DNA from: Nitrospinota bacterium
GTDB taxonomy: Bacteria; Nitrospinota; Nitrospinia; Nitrospinales; VA-1
DNA length: 35,515 bases
Direction of reading: 5' to 3'
Assembly: GCA_014382285.1 (NCBI GenBank)
Contig: JACNKA010000085.1
Location: 1 to 35,515 of the forward strand
The translations under genes were made by a program, and so were the position numbers. Positions 4,988 to 23,251 of the stretch are shown here, piece after piece (position 1 is the first letter of the stretch; the number at the start of each line of letters is the position of its first letter). Below the pieces are notes generated by a model, which saw only the letters and a program-made list of their open reading frames with translations, was not told the origin of the DNA and made no database searches.

Positions 4988-6802
4988 ATGAATAAACCTA
5001 TTACGATTTTATTCAAGCTGGTTTTTGTAGGGCTTTTCTTGTTCATGGTGGTTTTCATCATGAAACTGGAAATCAGCAATTATGACAGTTACTCATACCT
5101 GGGGAAGGCCAACTATAACGCCGGTTTCCCATATTTCGAAGAGCCCGAGATAAACACACGCCCACCTTTATACCCGTTTTTACTCACCCCTTTAGCCGCT
5201 TTGCAGCATTTGGGACTTTCCGCTAAGGCGGTAATGACCCTGGCGCATTTTATTGCCCTGATACTTTCTTTTGCGTTCATTGGGGCAAGCTATCTGCTTC
5301 TGAAGTCATTATTGCCTCAGGAATTAGCGGCTTTGGGAGCTTTGCTGATGATGATTCAGCCTGCTTTTCTGCTTTTTTCTTTTGAGCCGATGGTTGATTT
5401 GCCCTGTTCTCTGCTACTGGTGCTGGCAATGCGATCCTATTTGAGGTATCGCGAAAATCCCAGCCAAAAAAATCTCTTATGGGTTTGCCTATTCACGGGG
5501 TTGGGCATAACCATGAAATACAGCCTTATTGTGGCTCCTTTGATATTTGTACTGGCAGAGACATTGGTTTTAAGGACTAAAGAAAAAATGAGTTGGTTAA
5601 TCATTTCTAAAACCAAGTTCATATATCTGGTTCCATTGATATCTGCTGGGTTTTATATGCTGATCAGCCTGATATCTTTTGTGCCTCAATATGGATGGAC
5701 TTGGGAAAATGTGTCCATGATCTATTTACCTTTTTTCCTGCGTATTGATTACAGTGCCTTTGCGAAATTCAAATTTGACCTCTTGGCAAACTTTTCCTTC
5801 CTGGAAATACATATGACGCTGCCATGGTTTATTTTGATGGTTTTGGGACTGTATTTTTGTCTAAAGCATATCAAGTGGCAGAGCATGGTTGTTTGGAGCT
5901 GGTTTGTGGGGTTTATGATATTTATTACTTTTGTTAACTGGAATTACCACGTGCAATACCTTTTCCCGGTTATGCCAGCCTGCTATTTTTTTAGTCTTTA
6001 TGGGGTTAAGAATGTCTATGGTTGGGCACAAAAACGCATGGCTGGTAAAGGTTATTTTTCGGCCTTAAAAATTGTTGTTTTAGTGGTACTTTTTGTATGG
6101 CCTGTTATGAATCTGATTAGCGAGATCCAGTCTTTAAGGAGTGACCTGTATAGCAATAAAATTCCTACCCAGATCGCTACCAAGGTGAAGGAGTTGGCCC
6201 ACGAGAAGAATGATGTGTGGTACTTGGGGGGATTTTATCCTCTTTACCAGTTAGGGCAACAAATTCATCCGCAAGACTGGTTTTATAAAATTTATCATCT
6301 GGGGCATAATGCCCTGAGTTTTTTAAGCGCCCGGAAGATTAGTGCTTTCCCAGGCCACACGCCCTATGATTACTCCGATAAGATAAAAGATGGGGATATA
6401 CTGATCTACTACCCGGGTCCGTCTGTGTGGGTAAATTACCTGCCCGAGCTTGACAGCCGGCCTCCTGTTTTTGTGGGGAAAGTGAAACCCTCGACCTATG
6501 TTTTAAAAAACAAATTCGAAAAAGTGAAAATTTTTCTGACGCAAGATGGGTTGTCTCGCATCCAACTGACTTCTGTGGGCGACAGCCAGATCGTGATTGA
6601 AATGGACATGAATGAAAATAAGGCTCCCCTACATATTTTGTGGTTTAAACTGGACCGTCGAATCATCAATGTAAGAGTGGTAGAGAAAAACTTTTTCTAC
6701 TTTAAAACGGGTGATTACCTGACTCTTCCTGCAGACAGAAATTATTTTGAACGGATTCAGGGAATCACTCTTCTTCATTATCAGGCAGAAGAGTTCCGTT
6801 AA
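4988..6802 (+). CDS. Multi-pass membrane glycosyltransferase (GT39/ArnT-like)
   Basis: 604 aa with many hydrophobic segments; N-terminal luminal motif NYDSYSYLGKANYNAG...EINTRPPLYPFLL typical of GT-C enzymes. Confidence 0.75.
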   Translation: MNKPITILFKLVFVGLFLFMVVFIMKLEISNYDSYSYLGKANYNAGFPYFEEPEINTRPPLYPFLLTPLAALQHLGLSAKAVMTLAHFIALILSFAFIGASYLLLKSLLPQELAALGALLMMIQPAFLLFSFEPMVDLPCSLLLVLAMRSYLRYRENPSQKNLLWVCLFTGLGITMKYSLIVAPLIFVLAETLVLRTKEKMSWLIISKTKFIYLVPLISAGFYMLISLISFVPQYGWTWENVSMIYLPFFLRIDYSAFAKFKFDLLANFSFLEIHMTLPWFILMVLGLYFCLKHIKWQSMVVWSWFVGFMIFITFVNWNYHVQYLFPVMPACYFFSLYGVKNVYGWAQKRMAGKGYFSALKIVVLVVLFVWPVMNLISEIQSLRSDLYSNKIPTQIATKVKELAHEKNDVWYLGGFYPLYQLGQQIHPQDWFYKIYHLGHNALSFLSARKISAFPGHTPYDYSDKIKDGDILIYYPGPSVWVNYLPELDSRPPVFVGKVKPSTYVLKNKFEKVKIFLTQDGLSRIQLTSVGDSQIVIEMDMNENKAPLHILWFKLDRRIINVRVVEKNFFYFKTGDYLTLPADRNYFERIQGITLLHYQAEEFR

Positions 6803-8401: not shown

Positions 8402-8854
8402 TCATTGCCCCGAATTGGCACCAGGCAGGTCTCCCGTTGATCCAAAACCCGCTGTGTTGCGGACGGTTTCACTCAACTTGTCGCTGGCTATGAACTTGAC
8501 CGTTTCTACTTTTTGAATGACCAACTGGGCGATACGGTCTCCCGACTGGATACAGATTTCATCATCAGAGTGGTTGAACAGAAGAACTTTAATTTCGCCT
8601 CGATAATGCGAGTCAATCACTCCGGCGCCGCAGTCGAGCCCCAGTTTAACCGCAGGTCCACTGCGCGGCCATATCAAACCGACATAACCTTCGGGAAGCT
8701 CCAGACTAACTCCGGTAGCTACCAGTTCCCGGTTTCGGGGGGCGATGACTTTGGTTTCTACAGCTTTTAAGTCAGCACCGGCATCGCCTTTGTGGGCATA
8801 CTGGGGAAGGTAATCGCCTTTGCAGGGAACGGGAACTGAGTCGGTTTTGTTCAC
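8402..8854 (-). CDS. dut: dUTP diphosphatase
   Basis: HKGDAGADLKA, WPRSGPAVKLGL, GVIDSHYRGEIKVLLFN, GDRIAQLVI, NTAGFGSTG motifs. Confidence 0.95.
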   Translation of the reverse strand: MNKTDSVPVPCKGDYLPQYAHKGDAGADLKAVETKVIAPRNRELVATGVSLELPEGYVGLIWPRSGPAVKLGLDCGAGVIDSHYRGEIKVLLFNHSDDEICIQSGDRIAQLVIQKVETVKFIASDKLSETVRNTAGFGSTGDLPGANSGQ

Positions 8855-17425: not shown

Positions 17426-17443
17426 CTTTTCCTCCCTGAAAAG
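17426..17443 (-). promoter_or_regulatory. SD-sequestering hairpin with GGA loop, fla1 leader (putative CsrA site)
   Basis: RNA sense CTTTTC[AGGGAG]GAAAAG, 6-bp perfect stem, hexaloop, immediately 5' of ATG. Confidence 0.65.
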
Positions 17444-18387: not shown

Positions 18388-18405
18388 ATTATCCTCCTTG
18401 ATAAT
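18388..18405 (-). promoter_or_regulatory. SD-sequestering hairpin with GGA loop, fla2 leader
   Basis: RNA sense ATTATC[AAGGAG]GATAAT, 6-bp perfect stem. Confidence 0.65.
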
Positions 18406-18427
18406 TAGGGATGAAGCTGATTCCCGT

Positions 18428-18447
18428 TTTCAGCATCCGTGCTGAAA
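18428..18447 (-). promoter_or_regulatory. Upstream GGA-loop hairpin, fla2 leader
   Basis: RNA sense TTTCAGC[ACGGAT]GCTGAAA; up to 8 bp if the A-T pair closes (tetraloop CGGA). Confidence 0.65.
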
Positions 18448-19244: not shown

Positions 19245-20102
19245 TTATCCCAAGAGCTGTAATACCGATTGCGGGATCAAGTTTGCCTGGCCTACCATGG
19301 CCGTTGAAGCCTGCACCAAAATCTGGTTCCGAGTCAGCAGAGCCACTTCTTCGGCGATGTCGGCATCGCGAATGGCGGATTCCGCTGATTGCAGGTTCTC
19401 AACTGAAATGGACAGGTTCGAAATAGTACGAACAAGCCGGTTTTGCACGGCACCCACTTTACCTCGAGACTGGGTGACAATGGAAATCGCAGAGTTAATG
19501 GTATCCAATGCTGTGAGAGCTCCCTCAGCACTGGTTACGCTCAACCCAGCCACCCCAAGAGCGGATGCTGTAACTGCTGTCAAGTTGATCTGTTCATTCA
19601 AGTTGATGCGGCTGTCAGCGCTACTGTTAATGCCCACTTGAATGAGGATCTGGCTTGTAGAAGCTACCGATGAAGCCAAAGAACCATCGACCAGGTTTTG
19701 CCCGTTAAATGCTGTGGTGTTGGCGATACGGTCAATTTCCAAGCGCAGAGCGTCAAACTCCAATTGAACGGTTTGTCGTTCGGTTGATCCTACTGTTCCG
19801 GTGGCTGCCTGAGAGGAAAGTTCTCTCAGACGGATCAGGATGCTGGACTGCTCGTTGAGCGCACCCTCCGTAACGTTGATGAGTGAAATTCCATCGTTGG
19901 CGTTTCGAACTGCCTGCCGAAGGGCTCGAATATCAGAGCGCAATGCCTCTGAAATTGCTAGACCCGCGGCATCATCAGCACCTCTGTTGATCCGGAGGCC
20001 GGATGAGATACGTTCTACTGATGTTGCAAGACGATCGTTGTTAATACCCAAAATTCTTTGGGCGTTAAGTGAGGGGATGTTGTTAAAGATTCGAACTGGC
20101 AT
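19245..20102 (-). CDS. Flagellin (fla3)
   Basis: MPVRIFNNIPSLNAQRILGINNDRLATSVERISSGLRINRGADDAAGLAISEALRSD...; near-identical ends to fla2. Confidence 0.96.
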   Translation of the reverse strand: MPVRIFNNIPSLNAQRILGINNDRLATSVERISSGLRINRGADDAAGLAISEALRSDIRALRQAVRNANDGISLINVTEGALNEQSSILIRLRELSSQAATGTVGSTERQTVQLEFDALRLEIDRIANTTAFNGQNLVDGSLASSVASTSQILIQVGINSSADSRINLNEQINLTAVTASALGVAGLSVTSAEGALTALDTINSAISIVTQSRGKVGAVQNRLVRTISNLSISVENLQSAESAIRDADIAEEVALLTRNQILVQASTAMVGQANLIPQSVLQLLG

Positions 20103-20104
20103 TG

Positions 20105-20120
20105 TAATCCTCCATGATTA
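20105..20120 (-). promoter_or_regulatory. SD-sequestering GGA-loop hairpin, fla3 leader
   Basis: RNA sense TAATC[ATGGAG]GATTA, 5-bp perfect stem. Confidence 0.65.
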
Positions 20121-20135
20121 ATTTTACGGGTTACT

Positions 20136-20157
20136 GTTTTGGTCTCCGAACCAAAAC
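20136..20157 (-). promoter_or_regulatory. GGA-loop hairpin, fla3 leader
   Basis: RNA sense GTTTTGGT[TCGGAG]ACCAAAAC, 8-bp perfect stem. Confidence 0.7.
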
Positions 20158-20171
20158 AAGCCTCCAAGCTT
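20158..20171 (-). promoter_or_regulatory. GGA-loop hairpin, fla3 leader
   Basis: RNA sense AAGC[TTGGAG]GCTT, 4-bp perfect stem. Confidence 0.5.
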
Positions 20172-20181
20172 TTAACCCTTT

Positions 20182-20204
20182 AGTGAAAAATCCGTTTTTT
20201 CACT
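20182..20204 (-). promoter_or_regulatory. GGA-loop hairpin, fla3 leader
   Basis: RNA sense AGTGAAAAA[ACGGA]TTTTTCACT, 9-bp perfect stem. Confidence 0.65.
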
Positions 20205-20279
20205 ATGACACTTTTGTTACCTCCTGATCATACGTTAATGATTTGCTTCTAACTCAGGATACAAACATGCTCAATGAGG

Positions 20280-20307
20280 CCTATCGGAAAAGGATGAGAT
20301 ATCTTTA
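20280..20307 (-). promoter_or_regulatory. Sigma-28-like promoter for fla3
   Basis: Minus strand TAAAGATA-N12-CCGATAGG; 16 nt from TAAA to CCGATA, the same spacing as the E. coli FliA consensus. Confidence 0.65.
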
Positions 20308-20455
20308 GAAAAAAATCGCGCAGGAGCGCAGGTGGGCGTTCTGGAGTGGTTATGAAATATCAAGGGCAATGTGGGCTTGAGCTATCTAAAGCATTATAGA
20401 ATAATGACTATTGCTCTCTGTAACTCGTGCCCGCCCTGGGTTTAGATCAGAAAAG

Positions 20456-21387: not shown

Positions 21388-22131
21388 CTAATCCGCTCCC
21401 ATGTCTTTTTTTATGCAGTCGGTTGCCACCCGAAGAAACTCTCTGGCCTGTGTATAGGAGTCCGGTGCCGAGTTTGCGGCGTGGTGATTCTCAATAGCGG
21501 TAGCCAGATGTCTTTTGATTTCCTGCAGGTGAGTTCCCAATGCGGCGGATCTTTGCTTCAATCGGCTTATGATTGCCAAAGCATTTTCCAGAACCATTAA
21601 CCCCTTCAATCCCTTTTGTGGAGAATCGATTGATAAATCTCCCAGCCCCAGAGTTTTTGCGGTGATGGAGGGAATGTTCAGGCTAGTGTTAAGGTTGATG
21701 CGGTTTTCGGGTGAACCATTTGCCCCGACAACCAGAAAGGAATGCGAATCGTTATGCACGGAAGCGGATATCGAGCCATCGAGAAATTTCTGCCCTCTAT
21801 GTTTGAAGGTTTCTACCGCTTGATCCAACGCCCTCAACTTCTGGCAAATATTAAATTCCAAATCGGATTTTTGTGGAGTTCCCAGGTTGGATGCCAAGCT
21901 GGGGGTGACCCATTGCTTGACTTGCGACAAAACAGCTTCAATTTCAGCGTAAGCATTTTCCACGACCGAGACCAACTCCATCCCCAATGAGACATTGTGA
22001 ATGGCCTGATCCAGGTTTTTAGGGTCGGTTTCCTGGTTGGTGAACTTTTTAAACTCTAACCCGGAAACTTTCTGGCCGGACTCGATATCTTCAATTTTAT
22101 AGACAAAATTGGCGATCACTTTCTGATTCAT
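21388..22131 (-). CDS. Degenerate flagellin-like protein lacking both D0 segments
   Basis: Aligns by eye to neighbours through KIEDIESGQKV (cf. VERISSGLRI), GQKFLDGSISASVHNDSHSFLVVGANGSPENRINLNTSLN (cf. GQNLVDGSLASSVASTSQILIQVGINSSADSRINLNEQIN) and LGLGDLSIDSPQKGLKGLMVLENALAIISRLKQRSAALGTHLQEIKRHLATAIENHHAANS. Confidence 0.8.
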   Translation of the reverse strand: MNQKVIANFVYKIEDIESGQKVSGLEFKKFTNQETDPKNLDQAIHNVSLGMELVSVVENAYAEIEAVLSQVKQWVTPSLASNLGTPQKSDLEFNICQKLRALDQAVETFKHRGQKFLDGSISASVHNDSHSFLVVGANGSPENRINLNTSLNIPSITAKTLGLGDLSIDSPQKGLKGLMVLENALAIISRLKQRSAALGTHLQEIKRHLATAIENHHAANSAPDSYTQAREFLRVATDCIKKDMGAD

Positions 22132-23034: not shown

Positions 23035-23087
23035 TTCCTAATCCTCCACCATGAGTTGGAATTATTTTTGCTGCTATTACTTTTAAA

Positions 23088-23200
23088 CGTTTGCTGCTGC
23101 CCCTGAAGAGTCTTTATTTTGGTGGCTCTCCTCAGCATTCCACCGTTTACTGCTGCCCCTGAAGAGTTTTTATTTTCGGTGGCTCTCCTCAGCATTCCAC
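23088..23200 (-). repeat. Two tandem 56/57-bp direct repeats in the fla5 5' leader
   Basis: cgttt(g/a)ctgctgcccctgaagagt(c/t)tttatttt(c)ggtggctctcctcagcattccac twice (23088-23143, 23144-23200). Each encodes RNA GGTGG...CT[GAGGAG]AG-CCACC (23121-23144, 23178-23201). Confidence 0.85.
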
Positions 23201-23251
23201 CTTTATTTTCAAACCCATAAAGCAGAAAACCGGGTTTAAATAGCTTGTTTC

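Follow-up and report, generated by a model that had tools for sequence, protein, structure and literature searches.

A probable CsrA-FliW-flagellin switch in the fla3 leader of Nitrospinaceae, with four GGA-loop hairpins and a three-way junction

A row of small hairpins, each carrying GGA in its loop, lies in front of the flagellin gene fla3 of a Nitrospinaceae bacterium, and the question raised by this locus is whether these hairpins form a control element read by the RNA-binding protein CsrA and, if so, why there should be as many as four of them. The stretch of DNA that was analysed, referred to here as the window (35,515 nucleotides), is a single contig (G000:C19) that carries on its minus strand a cluster of five flagellins, one degenerate flagellin-like ORF and two FlaG-like ORFs, the degenerate flagellin-like and FlaG-like names having been assigned by reading the translations. 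The closest named record to Fla3 comes from MAG OFTM91 (96% protein identity). The degenerate ORF (window 21388-22131, minus strand) lies between fla1 and fla2, a position kept in many relatives, and its leader is without a GGA hairpin. The leader of fla1 (window 23050-23205, minus strand) contains an element of about 57 nt in two tandem copies (GGTGGAATGCTGAGGAGAGCCACC...CTCTTCAGGGGCAGCAG), and the motif CGGTGGAAAGCTG is found again near -110 in the fla1 leaders of several relatives; this element may represent a separate structured leader.

Architecture of the fla3 leader

A conserved sigma28-like promoter leads to a predicted transcription start at about 20274 and hence to a leader of about 172 nt. 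Reading 5' to 3', the promoter is followed by a CAGGAGG element, hairpin 1 (hp1), a GGGTTA arm, hp2, hp3, a TAACCC arm, the hairpin over the Shine-Dalgarno sequence (SD hairpin) and the fla3 ATG (Table 1). An earlier note on this DNA had described three GGA-loop hairpins at 20136-20204 upstream of the SD hairpin, and all of them are present on the minus strand with perfect stems; the SD hairpin was said to bring the number of candidate sites to four in a leader of some 170 nt, and four were indeed found, with the promoter supporting that length. All four have GGA in the loop of a perfectly paired hairpin and one of them, with the loop ATGGAG, overlaps the SD. The upstream hairpins had further been described as lying back to back, which is correct for hp2 and hp3, between which there is no gap, but not for hp1 and hp2, which are separated by the GGGTTA arm of an outer helix (GGGTTA/TAACCC) that the same note had missed. 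Enclosure of hp2 and hp3 by this helix produces a three-way junction, and hp1, hp2, hp3 and the outer helix are all present in the minimum-free-energy fold of the leader; the SD hairpin has a weak stem (-1.2 kcal/mol). The GGA-to-GGA spacings along the leader are 28, 18 and 34 nt. The full ANGGA motif is found in this genome only in hp1 and the SD hairpin, hp2 having UUGGA and hp3 UCGGA.

Table 1. Positions of the promoter, leader elements and regulated gene at the fla3 locus, with the fla4 and fla5 hairpins used for comparison
Feature	Position in window	Strand	Remarks
Sigma28-type promoter TAAAG-N15-CCGATA	20282..20307	-	pattern upstream of 24/25 orthologous leaders
CAGGAGG element, 5' part of leader	20220..20226	-	GGAGG at same place in 23/25 relatives
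hp1 AGTGAAAAA[ACGGA]TTTTTCACT, pentaloop	20182..20204	-	9-bp stem, 10 with flanking T-A
Outer helix, 5' arm GGGTTA, encloses hp2 and hp3	20173..20178	-	94% of cells paired, one double-change pair
hp2 AAGC[TTGGAG]GCTT, most conserved leader part	20158..20171	-	columns GCTTGGAGGC invariant, 22 aligned leaders
hp3 GTTTTGGT[TCGGAG]ACCAAAAC, hexaloop, 8-bp stem	20136..20157	-	100% of cells paired
Outer helix, 3' arm TAACCC	20128..20133	-	pairs with GGGTTA
SD hairpin TAATC[ATGGAG]GATTA, SD inside ANGGA loop	20105..20120	-	GGA kept 25/25
fla3 flagellin CDS, 285 aa, regulated gene	19245..20102	-	ATG at 20102
fla4 leader, two-site comparison	18388..18447	-	without hp1, hp2, outer helix
fla4 upstream hairpin TTTCAGCA[CGGA]TGCTGAAA	18428-18447	-	
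fla4 SD hairpin ATTATC[AAGGAG]GATAAT	18388-18405	-	
fla5 SD hairpin CTTTTC[AGGGAG]GAAAAG	17426..17443	-	

The CAGGAGG element lies about 20 nt upstream of hp1 and, judged by its sequence, is a possible fifth GGA/CsrA site. No conserved start codon was found at the usual distance behind it among the relatives, and a leader mini-ORF was considered and discarded, since the GTG TCA TAG that exists in the window has a start codon that is not conserved in relatives. Right behind the promoter there is a palindrome, CTCATTGAG (window 20270-20278, minus strand), of which CATT[GA]AG is kept in 23 of 25 fla3 leaders.

The likelihood that such an array arises by chance was assessed with a site scan that required GGA within a loop of 4-7 nt and at least 4 bp of perfectly paired stem. 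When the leader was shuffled 20,000 times with its dinucleotides preserved, four sites were never reached, and four sites within 90 nt appeared in one of 400 shuffles of the whole window strand. When the whole window was scanned, three or more sites within 90 nt were seen in the fla3 leader only; among the 30 window genes it was again fla3 alone that had more than two sites, and a GGA hairpin overlapped the SD in just three (fla3, fla4 and fla5), all of them flagellins. Three or more sites were found in none of 64 flagellin leaders of other lineages (mostly Gammaproteobacteria), and a search of the organism's own genome at E up to 0.1 with strict filters revealed no array besides that at the fla3 locus. 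Rfam returned no match in the window at the gathering threshold except a tRNA, and none on 20080-20310 at E up to 1, so that identity with an Rfam family was rejected; an intrinsic terminator was likewise rejected because there is no U-tract after hp1.

Conservation and covariation among relatives

With the leader and the start of fla3 as a DNA query, matches at some flagellin were obtained in 32 of the 47 genomes of the family, and the array proper was found in 25 of the 47. Comparative folding, which had been named earlier as a check, bears the structure out: over 22 aligned leaders 92.6% of the structure cells pair, and changes on both sides were observed in 11 of 31 pairs as against a mean of 4.3 in shuffled alignments, with none of 500 shuffles as high. 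When the pairing partners were slid as a control, the proportion of paired cells dropped to 35-59% and every measure was lower. The most changeable hairpin is hp1, with double changes in 5 of its 9 pairs and stem variants such as TAGTGAAAAA[ATGGA], CAGCGAAGAA[ATGGA], AGGCGAGAAA[ATGGA] and GGTGAGGAA[AGGGA] in which the GGA loop is retained, while hp3 is paired in every sequence and has double changes in 4 of its 8 pairs. The sequence of hp2 is nearly frozen, one pair having changed from A-U to C-G in four sequences. RNAalifold run alone on the sequence alignment recovered only hp2 and hp3, and we think that it misses hp1 and the outer helix because the alignment shifts and has gaps there. Because the fold is kept in the relatives while the letters change, a genuine control function of the fla3 leader is very likely. 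The idea of a structured multi-site array with the SD as one of its sites is upheld by conservation and covariation, and the genome has one csrA next to fliW.

The loops tell a more differentiated story than the stems. GGA is retained in hp2 and the SD hairpin in all 25 genomes, in hp3 in 22 and in hp1 in 14, the last figure comprising 13 found by script and one (L134, in which a U-U mismatch interrupts the stem) read by eye from the alignment. The four sites claimed earlier therefore stand for this genome but not as a state of the family, since the GGA of hp1 has gone in 11 of the 25 relatives, in most of which the stem is retained; because of this loss the fourth site (hp1) is regarded, from the sequences, as optional. 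ANGGA occurs at hp3 in 17 of 25 relatives, and the hp2 loop is UUGGA, never ANGGA, in all 25. Partition-function folds gave the GGA of the hp2 loop as open at 0.76-1.00, except for 0.32 in the divergent L119, that of hp3 as open at 0.95-1.00 wherever it is present and that of the SD hairpin at 0.30-0.97. Of the 22 leaders with an hp3 GGA, 20 have the GGAs of hp2 and hp3 spaced by 18 nt and the other two by 19 or 20 nt; the spacing between hp1 and hp2 is 26-28 nt among the relatives, and that between hp3 and the SD 34-40 nt, apart from two genomes that have about 70 nt in between, a stretch that can itself form a long hairpin. Two irregular leaders were also encountered. In L119 (G032:C308:8196-8342 and 8495-8639) the array occurs twice on the same strand, about 300 nt apart, which suggests a partial duplication of the leader, and L138-L140, from one genus, have an extra CGG[TTGGAG]CCG hairpin at about -155 from the fla3 ATG, with the loop of hp2 on a different stem.

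Two-site leaders, CsrA and FliW

A simpler version of the design is found in the same cluster, where the fla4 leader shares the upstream ANGGA hairpin and the SD hairpin with fla3 and is without hp1, hp2 and the outer helix; its loops, A[N]GGA upstream and AAGGAG at the SD, are invariant in 23 aligned leaders. Covariance-model matches in other families of the order were weak, but each of the five loci inspected ends exactly at the start codon of a flagellin; most of them keep an hp3-like GGA hairpin, e.g. TGTTTTAGCA[AGGA]TGCTAAAACA, and an SD-like one, and the flagellins of those families have the two-site version only. As hp3 matches the upstream site of this two-site core, we infer from the comparison that hp3 and the SD hairpin would be the older core, to which hp1, hp2 and the junction would have been added in Nitrospinaceae fla3.

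Two-site leaders are also known from well studied flagellins. The Campylobacter jejuni flaA leader has two ANGGA stem-loops and has been shown to titrate CsrA (PMC4894983). It resembles fla3 in being a flagellin mRNA whose hairpins display GGA in their loops, with one hairpin covering the ribosome-binding site, in the compensatory changes that keep its structure, in its sigma28 promoter and in being controlled through fliW rather than an sRNA (PMC4894983), but it is a 45-nt leader with two stem-loops, whereas the fla3 leader is about 172 nt long and has four stem-loops, a pair of which lies within a three-way junction. In Bacillus subtilis, CsrA represses hag from two sites in the leader of this flagellin mRNA, of which one covers the SD, and is antagonised by FliW (PMC7652899); hag differs in having only those two sites, and an enclosing helix is absent from the descriptions compared. 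Escherichia coli pgaA likewise has many CsrA sites, six of them, in a single mRNA leader, but this is not a flagellin, is not controlled by FliW and includes Rho-dependent termination (PMC7652899); a conserved junction of sites is absent from the part of the description that was compared.

The partners required for such control are present in the host, which has a single csrA (E 1.1e-23) adjoining fliW (E 3e-35) on contig C173, with fliW (5069-5530) overlapping the end of csrA (stop at 5072). In an alignment with CsrA/RsmA proteins of solved structure, the host CsrA keeps Arg at the position of R44, the residue that was mutated in the bridging study to disable the RNA-binding surfaces (PMC7652899). 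Among the relatives csrA is present in 23 of the 25 genomes with the leader and in 10 of the 22 that lack the leader (Fisher p 0.001), a co-occurrence that is confounded by assembly incompleteness and by the complete loss of flagellar systems, genomes without any flagellin being counted among the 22; although significant, it was for the reason of incomplete assemblies rejected as proof. Individual genomes point in different directions. In G035 flagellins are present, csrA and fliW were undetected and the leaders are without strong upstream and SD GGA hairpins, so that the missing genes fit the missing hairpins, but G001 (94% complete), in which the leader is present and csrA and fliW were undetected, points the opposite way. 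The csrA of G009 is fragmentary and its fliW and one flagellin carry stop codons, and the set therefore appears to decay together. It was also observed that no more than a few hundred bases separate csrA from the end of its contig in G007, G016, G018, G019, G020, G028, G033 and G044, and the absence of the gene in some assemblies may therefore be an assembly effect.

The proposed switch and its rivals

The reading preferred here, to which a probability of about 0.82 is assigned, is that the fla3 leader works as a translational switch of the CsrA-FliW-flagellin type, in which Nitrospinaceae have enlarged a core of two sites to four. CsrA would read the GGA motifs in the hairpin loops of the leader and, when on the SD hairpin, would block the ribosome so that no Fla3 is made; while flagellin export was under way FliW would take CsrA away, and unexported flagellin would recapture FliW. 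The core pair would be hp3 and the SD hairpin, 34 nt apart and bridged by one dimer as in two-site leaders, the same design as in fla4, Bacillus hag and Campylobacter flaA. To this core fla3 would have gained hp1, plus hp2 fixed 18 nt from hp3 in the GGGTTA/TAACCC three-way junction, and a second CsrA dimer could sit on hp1 and hp2 or on hp2 and hp3; the extra sites would most likely load this second dimer and raise local occupancy, giving tighter or more cooperative repression of Fla3. CsrA binding and bridging, the number of dimers and the repressive direction of control at fla3 are what we infer. It is known that a CsrA dimer bridges two sites over 10-63 nt, best above 18, and that its ligands have GGA in hairpin loops, mostly hexaloops (PMC7652899), and the spacings of 28, 18 and 34 nt are inside that published range. 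In SELEX, stems of four or fewer pairs prevailed among CsrA ligands (PMC7652899), and the stems of hp1 and hp3 (9 and 8 bp) exceed most of these. Such long stems count against the preferred reading, as do the weak SD hairpin, the loss of the hp1 GGA, the UUGGAG rather than ANGGAN loop of hp2, the failure of RNAalifold to recover more than hp2 and hp3, and the case of G001.

An important consideration is what the extra sites are for. It has been suggested that they act as a sponge, the abundant fla3 mRNA, itself repressed, also titrating CsrA and so freeing other flagellar messages. There is a precedent in the Campylobacter flaA leader, which titrates CsrA with two sites (PMC4894983), and no other leader of the window equals the fla3 array in number of sites, but selection for capacity would not favour the loss of the hp1 motif in 11 of 25 relatives, and control of CsrA would already be supplied by FliW; this reading is rather unlikely. 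The frozen, non-consensus hp2 poses a separate problem: CsrA may tolerate its loop, or some other factor may bind there. In the latter case hp2 and the junction would be a recognition element for, e.g., FliW, or a support of the fold, with CsrA using hp3, the SD hairpin and sometimes hp1. The near-invariance of the hp2 sequence, beyond what pairing demands, and the lack of ANGGA in its loop in all 25 genomes speak for this, and binding of FliW to the hag leader has been reported (PMC6529632). However, UUGGAG also occurs on unrelated stems, namely CGG[TTGGAG]CCG in the 5' leader of one clade, hp3 of L141 and GAATC[TTGGAG]GATTC of another Nitrospina flagellin, as would be expected of a loop read by a CsrA-like protein, and a non-CsrA role for hp2 is thus held to be doubtful. 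More speculative still is the thought that the three-way junction, together with its invariant UUGGAG hairpin, offers FliW or a CsrA-FliW complex a second place to bind. The leader would then sense CsrA and FliW alike by direct contact, and hp1 and the 5' GGAGG would adjust how CsrA is loaded or titrated.

Two further readings dispense with CsrA altogether. If the repeated GGAGG sequences recruited 30S subunits, as standby or decoy SDs, the occurrence of GGAG or GGAGG in hp2, in hp3 of many species, in the 5' CAGGAGG and in the SD would be accounted for, but in the hp1 loops GGA is followed by U (ANGGAU), AGGAU also makes up several hp3 loops, the fla4 upstream loops are all GGAU, GGAA or GGAC and the extra sites have no conserved start codon behind them. 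Because the loops of hp1, hp3 and fla4 vary after GGA, the common core is GGA in a loop and not GGAGG, and recruitment of ribosomal subunits is very improbable. That the inverted repeats act in DNA, as binding sites of a regulator or as the remnant of a terminator, can hardly be credited: complementarity would likewise be kept by inverted repeats in DNA, but the array lies downstream of the promoter and within the leader, its arms vary with complementarity retained, the loop GGA is strand-specific and a U-tract is absent.

The CsrA-FliW-flagellin switch that is preferred here is of a kind already known from hag and flaA, and what is new is its four-hairpin, three-way-junction form in Nitrospinaceae, of which no report was found in the literature searched. 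On this proposal, a switch known from work on Bacillus and Campylobacter would also operate in a family whose members are mostly uncultured. The paralogous and orthologous flagellins of these bacteria provide a natural series of two-, three- and four-site leaders, with which the effect of the number and spacing of sites on control by CsrA therefore becomes testable.
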